Shown: piece after piece, positions 29,862 through 50,540 of the stretch
Numbering within the stretch: the stretch's first letter is position 1
How the letters are laid out: each line of letters starts with the position of its first letter
Source of the DNA: Paenibacillus durus ATCC 35681
Lineage (GTDB): Bacteria; Bacillota; Bacilli; Paenibacillales; Paenibacillaceae
Reading direction: 5' to 3'
NCBI RefSeq assembly: GCF_000993825.1
Contig: NZ_CP011114.1
Location: forward strand, 4,588,001 to 4,652,000
Length of the DNA: 64,000 nucleotides
Made by a program: the position numbers and the translations under genes
The notes under the pieces: generated by a model
What the model saw: the letters and a program-made list of their open reading frames with translations, nothing else
Databases searched by the model: none
Told to the model about the DNA's origin: nothing

Positions 29862-30959
29862 TTAACGTTTAACTTCCATTTTCTCATGTTTGAAAATTTT
29901 ACAGCTGTCGCTTGGAAGATGTACAAACAGCCTTTGTCCAACGGCAATATCGGATTGTTTATTCACATACAACCGGATGGTTTCCCCTTCTGGAGCGCCA
30001 ACCATGCACTCTTTTCTTTCTCCTGAAAATACGATGTTCCGCACTTCCCCTTGAAGTATATTTTCTTCTGTGGAACCTTCATTGCCGATTTGAATATCCT
30101 CAGGCCGAATAAAAATGATTACTTTATCCCCTTTTTGTATTTCATCCTGTTTTACCAAGCCTTTTAATTGAAAACCATCGCTTTGAATGGACGCGTGCCC
30201 GTTATCTTTGTCCACACATTGCCCGACAATTTTATTAGATACACCAACAAAGTCTGCTACAAAAGGTGTTTGCGGTTCATTATATATTTCAAGAGGCGTC
30301 CCTAATTGCTGAATGACTCCATTCTTCATCACGGCAATCCGATCCGACAATGTAAGCGCCTCTTCCTGATCGTGAGTGACATAAATCGAAGTGAATTTTA
30401 ATTTGTCTTTTAAATTCATTATTTCAAATCGTAATTCTTCTCTCAGCTTGGCGTCCAAATTCGAAAGTGGCTCGTCAAATAACACGACCTTAGGCTGATA
30501 GATCAAAGCCCTTGCCAATCCAACCCTCTGCTGCTGTCCCCCAGATAATTCTCGCGGATATCGTTTGGCCAGATGATCCAATTGGACCAGACGCAGCATT
30601 TCCATCACTTTGACTTTACGTTCCTTTTTATTTTCTTTGCGGATTTTCAGCGGAAATTCCACGATCTCAAAAACAGTCATATGCGGAAAAAGGGCAAAAT
30701 TTTGAAAGACCAAACCGATTTCTCTTTTATGTGATGGAACATGGGTCAAATCTTTGCCTTTGATATGGATTTCTCCATTATCCGGCGTCAAGCTGCCTGT
30801 AATCATGTTCAGCGTGGTTGATTTCCCGCAGCCGCTCGACCCGAGAAGAGTCAGCATTTCTCCCTCATAAATGTCCAAATTCAGCTGGTTCACTACCGTA
30901 GCATGTCCGAACTTTTTTGTAATATTTTTCAATGAAATCATGACTTTCTTATCTATCAT
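29862..30959 (-). CDS. ABC transporter ATPase (PotA/FbpC type)
   Basis: 365 residues. Walker A GSSGCGKST, Q-loop LVFQNFALFPHMTV, signature LSGGQQQR, Walker B VVLFDEPLSNLD, and a C-terminal TOBE region from ~250 (FIRPEDIQIG). It energises the two permeases encoded just upstream; its ATG overlaps the permease stop by four bases. The class transports polyamines, iron, phosphonates and glycerol-phosphate compounds. Operon context points to a phosphorylated substrate. Confidence 0.93.
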   Translation of the reverse strand: MIDKKVMISLKNITKKFGHATVVNQLNLDIYEGEMLTLLGSSGCGKSTTLNMITGSLTPDNGEIHIKGKDLTHVPSHKREIGLVFQNFALFPHMTVFEIVEFPLKIRKENKKERKVKVMEMLRLVQLDHLAKRYPRELSGGQQQRVGLARALIYQPKVVLFDEPLSNLDAKLREELRFEIMNLKDKLKFTSIYVTHDQEEALTLSDRIAVMKNGVIQQLGTPLEIYNEPQTPFVADFVGVSNKIVGQCVDKDNGHASIQSDGFQLKGLVKQDEIQKGDKVIIFIRPEDIQIGNEGSTEENILQGEVRNIVFSGERKECMVGAPEGETIRLYVNKQSDIAVGQRLFVHLPSDSCKIFKHEKMEVKR

Positions 30960-31792
30960 AAACCTTTCACTCCTCCGCTTAAATTTTCCGGCTTGATTTG
31001 TTTCACGATTACACCAAGGATGAGGATGGAAGGGATGAGCAGGATAACGGAAATCGCGCTGGCTACTTCTTTATAGCCGTCTCCGATGGATAGATACGTC
31101 TGTATCGGCAAAGTGACCGTCTGCGGGCCGTAAGTCATCATACTTAAAGTAAACTCGTTAAAGGAAGTCACAAATACGAAAATTACCGCCGCCAAGATCC
31201 CGGGCATGGACATAGGGATAACCAAATATAGAAATCTCTGAAACCAATTGGCCCCGCAAACGCCGCCCGCGTCGATAACCCTTTGTTCCAAAGCCTCAAA
31301 CGTAGCGGACATAATTAATACAACATAAGGAATGGTAATGGTGGAATGCGCAAGCGCCACACCGAAATGAGTGTTAATCAGATCTAATGTATAAAATATT
31401 TTGGCCGTTCCGAGCGCATAAGTTAATTCCGGTATCATTCTAGGGAGCAGTATCAGAGCGATCAGCAGCTCCTTTGCCCGCAGCTTTCTTTTTCCTATAG
31501 CCCAAGCAGTGGGAACTCCGATCAACAAACTGATGACTATCGTTAATCCGGCAATCATAAAACTATTCATCGTGACCTGCATCAGATCCGTCATCTGAAA
31601 AGCCCACTCGAACCATCGTATACCCCATGATTCAGGCAGCCACCTTGCGCCGAACCAGCCTTCTCCGAAAGCGGACACGATGATGACGGCAAACGGCGAT
31701 AAAATAAACAAGGCAAATCCCAAAAGGAACGCGTAAATCACGACTTTCTTTCCCGTCCGGACGGCCCGAATGCTATGAGTGATCGGATTCAT
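30956..31792 (-). CDS. ABC permease, second subunit (PotC type)
   Basis: 278 residues, six transmembrane helices, with the EAA loop near ~180 (VIDAGGVCGANWFQRFLYLV). It begins one base after the stop of the other permease, which implies translational coupling. The TM order and spacing match PotC/FbpB-type importers. Confidence 0.9.
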   Translation of the reverse strand: MNPITHSIRAVRTGKKVVIYAFLLGFALFILSPFAVIIVSAFGEGWFGARWLPESWGIRWFEWAFQMTDLMQVTMNSFMIAGLTIVISLLIGVPTAWAIGKRKLRAKELLIALILLPRMIPELTYALGTAKIFYTLDLINTHFGVALAHSTITIPYVVLIMSATFEALEQRVIDAGGVCGANWFQRFLYLVIPMSMPGILAAVIFVFVTSFNEFTLSMMTYGPQTVTLPIQTYLSIGDGYKEVASAISVILLIPSILILGVIVKQIKPENLSGGVKGL

Positions 31793-32668
31793 CTATGCCG
31801 CGCTCCTTTTCTTAGTCAATCTAAAGTAAATCAAGATAAAAATAATCTCGAGAATCCCCATAATAATGGCTAAAGCGCTGGCTCTGGGCCAGTTATTAAA
31901 CACACCTGCTTCCGTGTAAATCGCAACTGTCAGGGGTCTGTAATTTCCACCGGCAATCAGCGGAACATTAAAGGCGCCGAAAGCAAGTAGAAAGGTCATC
32001 ACCGAGCCGGAACGGATACCGCTCATGCTTAATGGCAAAGTAATATATCTGAACACTTCAAAAGGTTTGGCCCCGGTAATCGTAGCCGCTTGCTCTACGT
32101 TCCGGTCGATTCCTTCTATCGATGATAAGGTCATCAAGATCGTATGAGGGGAGTAAAGCCATGCATAAAATAAGATCAAGCCGTACAGGGTGTAATTGAT
32201 TTTCAACGGTTCATCAATAATTGGCAGCACTTGCATAAGAAACAAGTTGACCCAACCGTTCTTGTCCCAGACGATCAGCAGGCCGAGAGCACTGATTAAC
32301 GCTAGTACCGTTAGCGGCAGTAAAATCAATAGTCGGATGAATGTATGACCTTTTACCCGTTTCCTTAAGATTAAAGCGAGCGGCAAGGCGATAAGGACGG
32401 AAAGGATCGTTGTGGAAATAGCCAAAACAAAGGTAATACCGATAACGTTCCAGTATTTTGCCGAACTTAGTAAATCGATATAGTTCTGAAGGGAATAACC
32501 GGTATGATTGCTTATCGTTAAGCTGTTCATGAAAGTTATGCAGAGCGGATAAATAAAGAGGCCGATGAAAAAGACTAGCCCGGGAAATAGAAGCAATAAG
32601 GTGAGCAAATTGTCTTTTTTAAATTGCATTGATATGGAAATGAGGAATCCTGATGAGGGATTCCTCAT
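31793..32668 (-). CDS. ABC permease, first subunit (PotB type)
   Basis: 291 residues with six transmembrane helices (LLTLLLLFPGLVFFIGLFIY at the start) and the EAA-like loop (VEQAATITGAKPFEVFRYIT). ATG 32668 is set by GGAGG eight bases upstream, but this ATG is inside a 13-bp perfect hairpin (32638-32670). An alternative is the ATG of MQFKKDN further in, which lacks a ribosome site. It follows the binding-protein gene by 21 bases. Confidence 0.88.
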   Translation of the reverse strand: MRNPSSGFLISISMQFKKDNLLTLLLLFPGLVFFIGLFIYPLCITFMNSLTISNHTGYSLQNYIDLLSSAKYWNVIGITFVLAISTTILSVLIALPLALILRKRVKGHTFIRLLILLPLTVLALISALGLLIVWDKNGWVNLFLMQVLPIIDEPLKINYTLYGLILFYAWLYSPHTILMTLSSIEGIDRNVEQAATITGAKPFEVFRYITLPLSMSGIRSGSVMTFLLAFGAFNVPLIAGGNYRPLTVAIYTEAGVFNNWPRASALAIIMGILEIIFILIYFRLTKKRSAA

Positions 32669-32670
32669 TT
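32638..32670 (-). promoter_or_regulatory. Perfect hairpin covering the permease start codon
   Basis: AAATGAGGAATCC and GGATTCCTCATTT, 13 bp each with a seven-base spacer. On the mRNA the stem contains the permease ATG and follows the GGAGG. It could lower permease translation or protect the upstream binding-protein message, as intercistronic stems do in other ABC operons. Confidence 0.65.
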
Positions 32671-32689
32671 CTTTCACCTCCAGCTGAAA

Positions 32690-33853
32690 TTACTTAACCA
32701 AATCCATGCCTTTTTCTTTTAAGAACGTGTAAGCTTCATTATTATTCAATGGAATTCTGGATTTCTTAACGACATCCCATGACGGCACGTTGTTCCATAC
32801 CGATTGAGGAACATTGTCATATTTATTGATTCCCATATAGATCCACAGCGTTTCCATCATGTTCACCTGCGTTTCTTCCGAAAGCATCCAGTTCACAAAC
32901 TTAGCAGCCAGCTCTTTCTGACTGTCAGGCGCGTTAGCAGGAATCGCTAGATAAGCTGCACCGCCATAATGGCCGCTTGGGAAGAAGGTGGATTTTACGG
33001 ATTTAGGAAGCAGGCCTTGGTCTCTGGACCAGAGTGTATAGTCAATTGCATATTCGGTAATCCAAACATCTTCCGAGGCAAATTGCTGGAACAATACCGG
33101 CGGTTCAGAAGCTAAAGGCTTAAAGAATGCTTTCGAGAATTCGCTGAATTTATTGATGCCGTTCGTCCATTCGGCTGTTTTTTGTAAAGTTTCAAAAGGC
33201 TTCGAGAAGTCTACTCCGTAACCGAGAAGGATATCGCGCTGCATGATTCTTCCTCCGCCGGACTTGGCGTCCGAACGGATCATACCGATGTGGCCGGCCC
33301 ATTCGCCCCGTCTTTCATAGAATTCTTCCCAAGATTTCGGAGGATTCTTGATTTTGTCGGAGTTGTACAAGATTCCAAATTGATCATGCCAGAAAGGAGC
33401 CGCCTTACCGTCCGTTGCAATTCCTAAGGCTTCCTTTAATTCACTAGGCTCAATCAGCGAAATATTGGGGATTTCCGGGTTGTTTTCAAGCGTTTCAAAC
33501 GGGATTCCAGCTTGAATCATATTGCCGATGCCATCCGGCTTTAACAACAGCACGTCGATATCGCCTTCACCTTGTTTCTGAGCGGATAATCTTTGCTGGA
33601 TTTCAGCCCCGGACCCTGTGACATAGTTAATTTTGATGCCCAATTCGCTTGATGCTTTTGGAATCATTTCACTAAAAAACTTTTGTGTGTTTGCGCCGCC
33701 TGCGGTATCGATAAAAGTAATGGATTGATTTTGAGGCTCAGGAGACGGGTTACTTGCATTGTCTTTTGTACTTTCGGTAGGACTGCTTGAACAACCGGCA
33801 ATCAGAGATACGCTTAATGTCATAATTGCGCACAGCTTCAACATGGATTTCAT
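32690..33853 (-). CDS. Substrate-binding lipoprotein of the ABC transporter
   Basis: 387 residues. Lipoprotein signal with lipobox LIAGC at Cys21, then a type 2 periplasmic-binding fold (FIDTAGGANTQKFFSEMIPK, LLLKPDGIGNM, FVNWMLSEETQVNMM) like spermidine, iron and 2-aminoethylphosphonate binders. It would sit on the outer face of the membrane. AAAGGAG precedes ATG. The ligand is not determinable; a phosphodiester or phosphonate is suggested by its neighbours. Confidence 0.9.
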   Translation of the reverse strand: MKSMLKLCAIMTLSVSLIAGCSSSPTESTKDNASNPSPEPQNQSITFIDTAGGANTQKFFSEMIPKASSELGIKINYVTGSGAEIQQRLSAQKQGEGDIDVLLLKPDGIGNMIQAGIPFETLENNPEIPNISLIEPSELKEALGIATDGKAAPFWHDQFGILYNSDKIKNPPKSWEEFYERRGEWAGHIGMIRSDAKSGGGRIMQRDILLGYGVDFSKPFETLQKTAEWTNGINKFSEFSKAFFKPLASEPPVLFQQFASEDVWITEYAIDYTLWSRDQGLLPKSVKSTFFPSGHYGGAAYLAIPANAPDSQKELAAKFVNWMLSEETQVNMMETLWIYMGINKYDNVPQSVWNNVPSWDVVKKSRIPLNNNEAYTFLKEKGMDLVK

Positions 33854-33867
33854 AGTTATCTTCTCCT

Positions 33868-34674
33868 TTATGTTGTATATATATTTAACAGTTGTTCCAT
33901 ATTTTTAACGATATAGTCAGGAATAATTCCAAGCATATTGTCCCGCAAATAGGGATTATGTTCATTAATCCAGACCGTTCGCAGCCCCGCTTGCACTCCT
34001 CCAGCCATATCCGTCATAAAATTATCTCCAACCATGACGCAATGATCGGGGTCAAGTCCATACCGGTTAAGCACACATTCGAACAAGTAAGGTGAGGGCT
34101 TCCCGATGTGCTCGATCTTCAGGCCGATCACCGTTTCAATCGCAGCGGTTAAAGAACCCGTTTCCGGTACAATCACCCCTCCGGTTCCTACATGATGCGA
34201 ATCGCAATTCGCCCCGATGACTTTCGCTCCGCAATGAATATCATTGACGATCTTCTGCAGCTTGTCATAATCAAACGTTACATCTCTCCCGACAAGAATG
34301 ACATCGGCCCGTATTGGATCGTCGATTGGAATAAGTTCATGTCCCGCACCTAGAACCGAGCCTTGCAATGCTTCGCTGCCCGCTACCTTAACCTTGACAC
34401 TGCTACCGAATTTCTCCTTCAAGTAATGACCTGCGTTGTCTGTTACGGTAATAATTTCATCAGGTTCGGCTGGTATGCCGATGCGGCTCATTTTGGAAGC
34501 AATTTCTTTTGCCGTCTGAGTTGAATTATTGGTAACGAAGAAACAACGTTTCCCTTCATGTTTGAGGAGCTCCAACAGTTCTTTAGCCCCGGCAGCCGGC
34601 GTGTCGCCATAATAGATGCATCCGTCCAAATCAAAAAGAAATGCCCTCATGCTGTTCATTGCTGTATTGCCCAT
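33868..34674 (-). CDS. HAD-IIA family phosphatase (NagD/AraL-like)
   Basis: 268 residues. HAD motif I is FLFDLDGCIYYGD with nucleophile and acid Asp, motif II is FFVTNNSTQ, motif III Lys is in HIGKPSPYLF, and motif IV is MVGDNFMTDMAGG. The C2-type cap is in the middle. Related enzymes dephosphorylate sugar phosphates, glycerol phosphate or phosphoglycolate. The start at 34674 follows AAAGGAG and overlaps the phosphodiesterase gene by 44 bases. I infer that it removes phosphate from the product of that enzyme. Confidence 0.9.
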   Translation of the reverse strand: MGNTAMNSMRAFLFDLDGCIYYGDTPAAGAKELLELLKHEGKRCFFVTNNSTQTAKEIASKMSRIGIPAEPDEIITVTDNAGHYLKEKFGSSVKVKVAGSEALQGSVLGAGHELIPIDDPIRADVILVGRDVTFDYDKLQKIVNDIHCGAKVIGANCDSHHVGTGGVIVPETGSLTAAIETVIGLKIEHIGKPSPYLFECVLNRYGLDPDHCVMVGDNFMTDMAGGVQAGLRTVWINEHNPYLRDNMLGIIPDYIVKNMEQLLNIYTT

Positions 34675-36016
34675 TCCTTGCTCCTTTGCCATTAGTTTTA
34701 AAATCGATGGCCTGCCCGTCCATCCCGGAAATATCACCTCCCATCATACTTAAAAGAGTCGGAGCTATATCGACAATTTGAATTTCGGGTATTTGAATGC
34801 CTGAAGGAATCGATTTGCCTGCGGCAACAAAGATACATTTCAATTCCTCATGATCAGGCAAATAGCCATGCATGCCTTGAAACTTCGTTCCTTCCATAAA
34901 CACAAGATCTCCCTCGTGTTCAAAATGAATGAAACAATCCATCTTCGCTTCAAAAGCAAAGTCCGGACGCTGATCCTCCATTTCTCCCTCAACAGGCAAA
35001 CCCAAGCTATCATAATCCTGCGGTTCAAAAAGTCTGCCTATCCCTTCCATTTCCTGCAAGCATTGTTTCACTTCCCGCATCAGTGCAGCTTTCATTGCAG
35101 GCTCTTCCTCAAAAATATACACGTATCCGGAACCGCCATTGGATACCGCCGCCACCTTGCTTTGCTCCGGCTGATTCGGATCGAACCAGCCTTTTTGTTT
35201 GAAGCATACATTGGGAAAAACCGTTTTCGTCGTATCGACGAATCCATGATCGGATACGATACATAGAGCGGTGTCTTCCCAGATCCCTTCTTCCTTTAGA
35301 GTCGAAACAAGCTCCCCGATTCGCTCGTCAATATACTCTAAGGACCAATACACTTCTTGCGATCGGGTGCCATAATCATGCTGGTAGCTGTCTGGAAGTA
35401 AATAATGAAGCAGCATGAGATTAGGTTTATGCCTCTGAATCAAATGCTTGGCAACTTCCGTCGTCAACCAATCCTGCATATGTCCCCGTGAATGATCTTT
35501 ACTCCAGGAACCGTATTGCTCAACCGGCAATCCCGCTTCTTTAAGCTCTCTCCACAAACCCGGCGTAGCATAGGCTTCAAATAAATCCTGATCATAAAAT
35601 TCAGGAATATTATAATCAATTGATTGGGCTTCCCTGGTAACGGGCCAGCATACGGAAGCCGTTGTCCATCCGAGCTGTTTGGCCGTGTCATAAATGGTCT
35701 CTCTTTGAAGAATCTCTTCCTTGCCCCAAGTGCTGTCGCTAAAATATTCGCCGACGCTTTTAGTTGAGCGATTCATTACCCAGTTTCCTAAAATCCCGTG
35801 CTTCCGGGGATAAGTGCCGGTAACGATGCTCGAATGAATAGCCCAGGTTGCCGTTGGAAATACGCTTTTCATCGCACCCGCCATTACACCCTGCTTGATT
35901 AAAGATCTTAGATGCGGCATTCTAACCTGCCGTTCCTGAAGGTAGTAATTCGCCATTCCGTCAATGCTGAGTAATATGATGTAAGAAGGCCGTTGACTGA
36001 CTGCTCCAGAGCTCAT
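34631..36016 (-). CDS. Alkaline-phosphatase-superfamily phosphodiesterase (NPP type)
   Basis: 461 residues, no signal peptide. Metal and nucleophile motifs of the type I phosphodiesterase/nucleotide pyrophosphatase family are present: ILLSIDGMANYY, FPTATWAIHSSIVTGTYPRKHG with the nucleophile Thr, LLHYLLPDSYQHDYGT and VSDHGFVDT, with HGYLPDH near the end. Family members split phosphodiesters, pyrophosphates or phosphonoacetate. AAGGGGGAAG precedes ATG. It is the first gene after the GlpP-type leader terminator and so heads the regulated part of the operon. I infer a glycerophosphodiester-like or phosphonate substrate taken up by the ABC system. Confidence 0.88.
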   Translation of the reverse strand: MSSGAVSQRPSYIILLSIDGMANYYLQERQVRMPHLRSLIKQGVMAGAMKSVFPTATWAIHSSIVTGTYPRKHGILGNWVMNRSTKSVGEYFSDSTWGKEEILQRETIYDTAKQLGWTTASVCWPVTREAQSIDYNIPEFYDQDLFEAYATPGLWRELKEAGLPVEQYGSWSKDHSRGHMQDWLTTEVAKHLIQRHKPNLMLLHYLLPDSYQHDYGTRSQEVYWSLEYIDERIGELVSTLKEEGIWEDTALCIVSDHGFVDTTKTVFPNVCFKQKGWFDPNQPEQSKVAAVSNGGSGYVYIFEEEPAMKAALMREVKQCLQEMEGIGRLFEPQDYDSLGLPVEGEMEDQRPDFAFEAKMDCFIHFEHEGDLVFMEGTKFQGMHGYLPDHEELKCIFVAAGKSIPSGIQIPEIQIVDIAPTLLSMMGGDISGMDGQAIDFKTNGKGARNGQYSNEQHEGISF

Positions 36017-36065
36017 TTTCTTCCCCCTTGGAGTTAGTTTTGCTTCAGTAAAATAAAAATGAACA

Positions 36066-36136
36066 GAAAAAGAGAAAGCTCAACAATAAACAGACATAGC
36101 CATGCTAAGTTCTGTTTATTGTTCAGAGCTTTCTCT
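36066..36136 (-). terminator. Leader terminator between glpP-like gene and phosphodiesterase, likely GlpP-controlled
   Basis: AGAGAAAGCT-AACAATAAACAGA (36071-36094) pairs with TCTGTTTATTGTT-AGCTTTCTCT (36111-36136), over 22 bp, followed on the minus strand by TTTTTCTG. It sits 30 bases after the GlpP-like stop and 50 bases before the next start. In B. subtilis, GlpP prevents termination at inverted repeats in glp leaders; position and gene order suggest the same here. Confidence 0.75.
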
Positions 36137-36165
36137 CGACACGACTCTAAACAATTAGAGATATA

Positions 36166-36747
36166 TTATATATCTTGAAAAGTTAATGACCACAAGCTTT
36201 GTTCACTGACAGAAAGCGAAGTTGCGCCAGCCTCAAGACATTCGGACGCCTCTTCTTTCGTATGAATCAGCCCGCTTGCGATGATGGGAATATGATCATA
36301 AGCGTCCGTAAAAGCAGCGATCGTCTTACGAACAACCCCAGGCATAAGCTCCACTCCATCAGGGCAAACATTCTCTACCGCCTTGAGTCCATTTTGCAGC
36401 GCTAAAGAATCAATAATAAATAAGTGAAGTATTCCGAATAAATTAGCTCTTTTCGCTTCAGCGATCAGATGACTTTTCGGCGTGACAATTCCGTCCGCTC
36501 CAATGTAATCTGCTATAAAGCTTACCGTTTCCTTGTCGGTATTGGATAAACCCTTAATCAAATCGACATGGACAAAAGCGCCTTTACCGGCTCTCTTGAC
36601 TAACTGAACGGCGTTAATAATCTCCTTAACTGTTCCACCCATGAAAAAGATATTGTCCACTTGACTTTCGATTGCTTGTTCAACATCTTTCACATTGCGT
36701 AAAGCGGCAATAATCGGCTTCTGACCAACTTTGTGGAGCAGATTCAT
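36166..36747 (-). CDS. glpP-like: GlpP-family glycerol-3-phosphate-responsive antiterminator
   Basis: 193 residues, the family length. It has the TIM-barrel-like GlpP fold: KPIIAALRNVKDVEQAIES, FVHVDLIKGLSNTDKETVSF, VELMPGVVRKTIAAF, PIIASGLIHTKEEASECLEA. GlpP proteins bind glycerol-3-phosphate and the leader mRNA of glp genes and stop termination. It is not next to glpF, glpK or glpD but directly upstream of a strong terminator and a phosphodiesterase/ABC operon, so this paralogue may serve that operon alone. AAAGG precedes ATG. Confidence 0.88.
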   Translation of the reverse strand: MNLLHKVGQKPIIAALRNVKDVEQAIESQVDNIFFMGGTVKEIINAVQLVKRAGKGAFVHVDLIKGLSNTDKETVSFIADYIGADGIVTPKSHLIAEAKRANLFGILHLFIIDSLALQNGLKAVENVCPDGVELMPGVVRKTIAAFTDAYDHIPIIASGLIHTKEEASECLEAGATSLSVSEQSLWSLTFQDI

Positions 36748-50396: not shown

Positions 50397-50540
50397 ACAA
50401 AAAAAATGAACCTCTGACAAGGCTCATAGTAAAACCTATGATTCCTTGTGGCAACCGGCTGCCTTCCACATGGATGTGGTTCAGGCCCTTGGCTTTGCGT
50501 CTCATGATTTCTCATGATTTGCCTTTTTCACTGGATTGTG
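50397..50540 (-). promoter_or_regulatory. Class I cyclic-di-GMP (GEMM-I) riboswitch with expression platform
   Basis: The minus strand has the GEMM-I signatures in order: GGCAAATCATGA, a GAAA tetraloop closed by TCATGA/TCATGA, GACGCAAAGCC, GGGCCTGAACC, a small hairpin, then AGCCGGTTGCC (aptamer ~50540-50450). Right after it, ACAAGG-CATAG/CTATG-CCTTGT (50449-50417) forms an antiterminator that competes with the terminator GAGCCT/AGGTTC (50425-50408), followed by eight T. The coding start at 50362 is close behind. Whether the ligand turns expression on or off is not decided by eye. Confidence 0.88.

Follow-up and report, generated by a model that had tools for sequence, protein, structure and literature searches.

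A GlpP-headed operon of Paenibacillus durus that probably serves glycerophosphodiester import and hydrolysis

The locus described here raises the question of why a gene for GlpP, the antiterminator that responds to glycerol-3-phosphate (G3P), should head a run of genes for a phosphodiesterase, a phosphatase and an ABC importer. It lies in a stretch of 64,000 nucleotides of the soil bacterium Paenibacillus durus ATCC 35681 (contig NZ_CP011114.1, positions 4,588,001 to 4,652,000; hereafter the window, whose numbering is used throughout), and its genes run on the minus strand, 36747 down to 29862: glpP comes first, followed after a 149-nt gap with a terminator by the genes for an NPP-type phosphodiesterase and a HAD-IIA phosphatase, and then by those for a binding protein, two permeases and an ATPase. 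On sequence comparison we consider it probable that this is a dedicated, GlpP-antiterminated operon for the import and hydrolysis of glycerophosphodiesters, small remnants of membrane lipids, in which an NPP occupies the slot of a GDPD-family enzyme and a Pot-like importer stands in the place of Ugp. A first-pass annotation of this DNA had proposed the operon, and all its parts were located where that annotation had placed them, with family matches above the cut-off:

36166..36747, minus strand: GlpP (glycerol-3-phosphate responsive antiterminator), 193 aa; G3P_antiterm (PF04309) 184.6 bits against a cut-off of 27; structure 3kts at 2.5e-29
36126..36147, minus strand: putative GlpP box GAGTCGTGTCGAGAGAAAGCTC in the leader, conserved across GlpP leaders
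36071..36137, minus strand: intrinsic terminator hairpin, the proposed switch; fold z -5.96; sole site of the hairpin pattern in the genome
34631..36016, minus strand: NPP-family phosphodiesterase, 461 aa; Phosphodiest (PF01663) 196.7 bits against a cut-off of 23; no hydrophobic N-terminal segment seen
33868..34674, minus strand: HAD-IIA phosphatase; TIGR01460 136.6 bits; chronophin, NPPase and G3P-phosphatase structures among its matches
32690..33853, minus strand: solute-binding lipoprotein, 387 aa; SBP_bac_8 65.3 bits against a cut-off of 27; AlphaFold2 (AF2) model with pLDDT 89; a rare family
31793..32677, minus strand: ABC permease 1; PF00528 (BPD_transp_1); PhnU/PotB-like, under the curated cut-offs
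30956..31792, minus strand: ABC permease 2; PF00528 (BPD_transp_1); PotC-like, under the curated cut-off
29862..30959, minus strand: ABC ATPase with TOBE domain; PF00005 (ABC_tran) and PF08402 (TOBE_2); PhnT2/PotA/UgpC-like, under these curated cut-offs

The HAD frame is open from 34737, and its likely start is the ATG at 34674, to judge from the P. rhizophilus sequence, in which the ATG of MGNTAMNS has a ribosome-binding-like AAGGAG ahead of it; the HAD gene would then overlap the end of the NPP gene by 44 nt. As with the NPP, no hydrophobic N-terminal segment was seen in the HAD protein, and the binding protein begins with a lipobox-like LIAGC.

According to the proposed scheme, transcription from a presumed promoter upstream of glpP would produce GlpP and then stop at the hairpin. 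The lipoprotein and the ABC importer would bring in a solute of the glycerophosphodiester class, which the cytoplasmic NPP would split into G3P and an alcohol. GlpP loaded with G3P, the putative inducer, would hold the GAGT...GAGAGAAAGCTC box, at the base of the terminator, and let RNA polymerase read into the NPP, HAD and importer genes. The HAD enzyme would hydrolyse G3P to glycerol and phosphate, damping the signal as well.

The search for the NPP protein took no account of GlpP. At the level of the order, 11 of 392 genomes matched at E <= 1e-60; at the level of the class 3 of 398 genomes matched, the P. durus genome among them and two of them new (some genomes are common to both samples). 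All of the resulting 13 loci have GlpP in the gene run of the NPP, and hence the arrangement is more than chance. HAD is found in 12 of the 13, the exception being L091, where GlpP itself was absent from the list of open reading frames and was found by tblastn, and importer genes are found in 11 of the 12 loci in which the contig does not end. These related genomes favour the pathway that the first-pass annotation had set out. Several gene orders occur: GlpP-NPP-HAD-Pot-like importer (the window, G393 and G382), GlpP-NPP-UgpA-UgpE-UgpB-HAD (G088, G312, G240 and G427), GlpP-UgpB-UgpA-UgpE-NPP-HAD (G252 and G330), GlpP-HAD-NPP-UgpA-UgpE-UgpB (G212 and G446) and GlpP-HAD-NPP followed by the contig end (G521). 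The importers are Ugp-like in 8 of 11 NPP loci, a label that outside L076 means a BLAST match to the L076 genes (24-86% identity) and not to curated models; the L076 genes themselves, from G088, gave best NCBIfam scores under the curated cut-offs (UgpA 196.6 of 335, UgpE 154.5 of 297 and UgpB 108.5 of 411 bits). In-frame stops were flagged inside the matched stretch of the NPP in G252, G330 and G446, whose open frames still measure 442-450 aa.

The window leader folds at -50.7 kcal/mol, and none of 200 shuffles was equally stable. A 2-nt bulge divides its main stem into 12 + 13 pairs, and a U run follows; the terminator stem of the first-pass annotation is present, but with 25 pairs instead of the 22 given there. 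The element GAGAGAAAGCTC, with at most one mismatch, was found downstream of glpP in 14 of the 15 loci of the window GlpP clade; it is missing from L124, where the HAD and phosphoesterase genes precede glpP. For 13 of those 14 loci, folding places it within the 5′ arm of a strong hairpin; in L123 the element begins at +316, and the folded stretch was cut off there. In 11 of the 15 loci it is preceded, at a distance of 6 or 7 nt, by a GAG(A/C/T) element. In other GlpP clades a version of the box with a spacing of about 4 nt is found ahead of terminators, e.g., GAGACGATGAGAAAACCC and GAGACTTGGAGATC, and in five GlpP groups the box expression matched 11/15, 7/12, 18/36, 3/5 and 2/4 loci, as compared with shuffled means of 1.18, 1.23, 5.1, 0.61 and 0.25. 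Terminator and conserved box are thus both present in the GlpP leader, and GlpP is predicted to act on them; an antitermination switch is suggested by the box together with the biology of GlpP in B. subtilis, where, in the part of the source available, GlpP with G3P disrupts the leader terminator and the regulon comprises glpD, glpF, glpK, glpT and glpQ (PMC9604022). The portions consulted of PMC9604022, PMC3997798 and PMC6878767 state no consensus for a GlpP box, and a published one may exist (Rutberg-group work on the glpD leader).

The hairpin could instead be the ordinary terminator of glpP, with the downstream genes read from their own promoter. Promoter-like matches numbered 20, about equal to the 15.6 (sd 3.7) of the shuffles, so there is room for such a promoter. 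Against this, the box is retained in the 5′ arm while the upper part of the hairpin varies between subgroups and yet pairs, similar GAG...GAGA boxes precede terminators in other GlpP clades, and the hairpin pattern has a single site in the genome; we give this explanation hardly any credence.

Whether GlpP serves other genes as well was approached in the P. durus genome itself. A PF04309 profile search of its 5.58 Mb gave a single match, the GlpP of the operon (the matched structure, 3kts, is presumably that of the Listeria protein), and therefore the description of this GlpP as a paralogue in the first-pass annotation was wrong. A gapped hairpin pattern, chosen because DNA alignment of the leader misplaced the 3′ arms, matched one place in this genome, the leader described above (counted on both strands, as the pattern is palindromic). 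Among 197 genomes of the family it matched five, four of them downstream of a window-clade glpP (G000, G088, G105 and G129), the other being G020; in G382 there is a second match away from the operon. One glycerol kinase gene scored above the cut-off in P. durus, and upstream of this glpK the nearest match of the box expression lies 1102 bases away; matches equally distant are seen at several other glpK loci, which looks like chance. Since the hairpin pattern occurs at one site and no box match lies closer to glpK, this GlpP is predicted, probably, to serve the present operon alone. As for the genus (g1), the 22 genomes listed include P. durus; 16 of them had no PF04309 match, and of these G013, G029 and G185, the three searched for glycerol kinase, all had one. 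In the four examined of the five other same-genus genomes with GlpP (G094 being outside), GDPD-type diester operons were found in all four (L119-L122).

The comparison with these sister operons bears on the substrate. In L119 to L122 and in L135, GlpP, HAD and GDPD genes occur together, with an ATPase and Ugp-like genes after them, the GDPD of L119 scoring under its curated model cut-off (140 of 264). In L123, L124, L157 and L158, GlpP and HAD stand with a calcineurin-like metallophosphoesterase and no importer is in view. GlpP and HAD thus occur with three unrelated phosphodiesterase families (NPP, GDPD and metallophosphoesterase). GDPD enzymes act on glycerophosphodiesters and release G3P; because they fill the same slot in the sister operons, the economical reading is that NPP would act on glycerophosphodiesters too, and it is this exchange of diesterases and importers from which the substrate is proposed. 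The metallophosphoesterase loci, which might represent a G3P-clearing unit, and L091, with GlpP and NPP alone, would also suit an operon for the recycling of G3P or phospholipid headgroups, in which GlpP senses an overflow of G3P and induces phosphatase and diesterase, import being secondary; a phosphatase that destroys the inducer would resemble homeostatic loops. We regard recycling as improbable, since 11 of the 12 testable NPP loci carry importer genes. Taken together, the conserved box, the single hairpin site, the linkage of NPP to GlpP and the GDPD and Ugp-like sister genes lend strong comparative support to the two central proposals of the first-pass annotation, namely that GlpP controls the leader and that the substrate is a glycerophosphodiester; both stay predictions made from sequence.

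A tree of 72 GlpP proteins agrees with a division by gene context. Its loci were a non-random sample (12 window-type or NPP, 20 picked from lower-scoring matches and 40 mostly top-scoring, three of these chosen for motif or genome), and for 38 of them the label was glpK or glpD nearby. A glpK/glpD clade of 36 rows (100/99), a GDPD/ugp clade of 12 rows (100/100) and the window clade of 15 rows (100/98) were obtained, the last formed by 11 NPP-type and 4 metallophosphoesterase loci; the labels change 13 times along the tree, against 32.3 in shuffles. These labels used a distance cut, by which L136 and L138 count as HAD only with a GDPD match 7-8 kb off, and L037, with little left of its NPP, is still labelled NPP type. 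Long branches make the placement of L092, L126, L130, L182 and L192 unsure. In 3 of the 13 NPP loci the GlpP falls outside the window clade, in G212 by the tree and in G446 and G521, which were found later and stand outside the 72 proteins, by BLAST only; all three score higher against the GDPD-type GlpP than against that of the window.

As to the enzymes, the PF01663 domain and the metal and nucleophile residues make the window protein a member of the NPP/ENPP family, and no GDPD domain (PF03009) was present among its three Pfam matches, so that it occupies the GDPD slot without being a GDPD member. It scored 42 of 407.55 with the model of the phosphonoacetate hydrolase PhnA (TIGR02335), and in the sources its family is named only 'alkaline phosphatase family' or similar. 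It is like the ENPP/NPP enzymes (XacNPP and ENPP4-7) in fold and in conserved catalytic motifs, and differs from them in that no hydrophobic N-terminal segment was seen and in its fixed linkage to GlpP. The HAD protein exceeds the TIGR01460 cut-off (100.15) and is a HAD-IIA phosphatase; structures 7po7 and 4i9f, which raise the question of a G3P phosphatase of the PGP/Rv1692 type, are among its matches, and its action on G3P is a guess from the family.

The importer is not assigned by curated models. Its proteins scored 338 of 432 for UgpC and 29.6 of 297 for UgpE; 363 of 482 for PotA, 99 of 348 for PotB and 103 of 326 for PotC; and 29 of 395 for PhnS, 363 of 457.7 for PhnT2, 82 of 283 for PhnU and 103 of 247 for the permease model PRK15050. 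The five matches of the binding protein, which is named 'putative spermidine/putrescine' in the sources, include neither UgpB nor PotD, and none reached a curated NCBIfam cut-off. The nearest named ATPase and permease families (PhnT2, PotA, the 2-aminoethylphosphonate permease and PotC) would be in keeping with an unrelated cargo, i.e., 2-aminoethylphosphonate, phosphonoacetate, a polyamine or iron, with GlpP as an accidental neighbour. Against this, PhnT2, PotA, PhnS and PhnA all stay below their cut-offs, and GlpP shares the gene run of every NPP found, which makes such a cargo very improbable. An importer of the same family was also seen in Candidatus Gaiellasilicea (L039, 8222-14085), preceded there by an RpiR regulator and a HAD phosphatase.

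Several observations weigh against a glycerophosphodiester operon under GlpP control. The importer of the window does not belong to Ugp, and at 20 of 38 loci its distant relatives have neighbours of sugar or inositol type (MocA, xylose-isomerase-like, PfkB or inositol-monophosphatase-like). A sugar- or polyol-phosphate ligand suggested by these relatives and by L039 was rejected as not transferable, because they are distant (36-61% identity, most below 50). The fold search with the AF2 model of the binding protein ties sugar, polyamine, dinucleotide and UgpB-glycerophosphocholine structures, the last being the M. tuberculosis structure 6r1b at rank 4, and such tied matches were not used to name a ligand, as they decide nothing. 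The HAD protein matches several HAD-IIA phosphatase structures, chronophin best, and the P. durus genome has four GDPD-family matches elsewhere. The box and hairpin patterns were written only after the leaders had been inspected; the gapped pattern matched 9 of 13 chosen genomes and missed four (G182, G190, G212 and G313, although the 5′ element is present in G313 and G182), and a reversed control pattern matched 2 of the 13 chosen and 3 of the 197 family genomes. G313 has GlpP and NPP without HAD or importer, and P. rhizophilus has the operon without NPP; at 8960-9120 of L037, its window-type operon with terminator retains only the 3′ end of the NPP gene; the second NPP, that of a Ugp-type operon, is found in G312 (C36), together with a matching leader (C8). 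Finally, the ENPP6 and ENPP7 structures contain phosphocholine, so that NPP may release a phospho-alcohol instead of G3P. With the same substrates, a cut on the other side, as made by ENPP6 on glycerophosphocholine, would give glycerol and a phospho-alcohol that HAD would dephosphorylate, G3P then arising through glycerol kinase. This variant is unlikely, though to be kept in mind, given that the slot is filled in the sister operons by G3P-releasing GDPD enzymes and that ENPP4, ENPP5 and the bacterial XacNPP are at least equally close in fold.

How does the proposed operon relate to known systems? In B. subtilis, GlpQ is a secreted glycerophosphodiesterase, and GlpT imports the freed G3P. The operon resembles the B. 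subtilis GlpP regulon in GlpP and the leader terminator, and that regulon, so far as the source was available, likewise holds the diesterase gene glpQ; it differs by its ABC importer, cytoplasmic NPP and HAD phosphatase, and by a GlpP that apparently serves one operon. Within the genus, GlpP is known from the GlpPKD operon of Paenibacillus polymyxa, which serves glycerol use (PMC6878767, seen in part). The GlpPs beside glpK or glpD form a clade separate from that of the window, the P. polymyxa protein itself not being identified in the tree. The Ugp system of E. coli (UgpBAEC and UgpQ) imports glycerophosphodiesters through an ABC transporter and hydrolyses them in the cytoplasm. The proposed operon would be like the Ugp systems of E. 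coli and mycobacteria in these two respects, and would differ in its presumed control by antitermination and in the families of its importer and diesterase, with Ugp-like importers in sister operons. GlpP antitermination and Ugp-type diester uptake are known in kind. The literature searched, in part, on GlpP, antiterminators and glycerophosphodiester transport showed no such gene combination, no GlpP dedicated in this way and no such exchange of diesterases. The remark of the first-pass annotation that no such system is described holds to that extent, but operons of the same logic (GlpP, HAD, GDPD and Ugp-like genes) are present in several other genomes of the family. Elsewhere in the window, a c-di-GMP-I riboswitch (74.6 bits; 50447-50533, minus strand) lies upstream of a 1625-aa frame (50362-45485) for a repeat-rich, probably secreted protein.

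For the family as a whole, we tentatively advance, with somewhat less than even confidence, that GlpP acts as a portable switch for antitermination and that at least two of its clades use it outside the glycerol regulon. One of these would have its own, longer-spaced box, here controlling a single self-limiting operon whose phosphatase destroys the inducer, while diesterase (GDPD, NPP or metallophosphoesterase) and importer (Ugp-like or Pot-like) would have been replaced by unrelated proteins and switch and phosphatase kept. The results indicate a use of GlpP outside glycerol catabolism and offer a concrete, testable candidate RNA box for this regulator. They also predict a substrate class, glycerophosphodiesters, for a binding protein named as one for spermidine/putrescine and, if this reading of the substrate holds, would point to a function for a family of cytoplasmic NPPs in bacteria.

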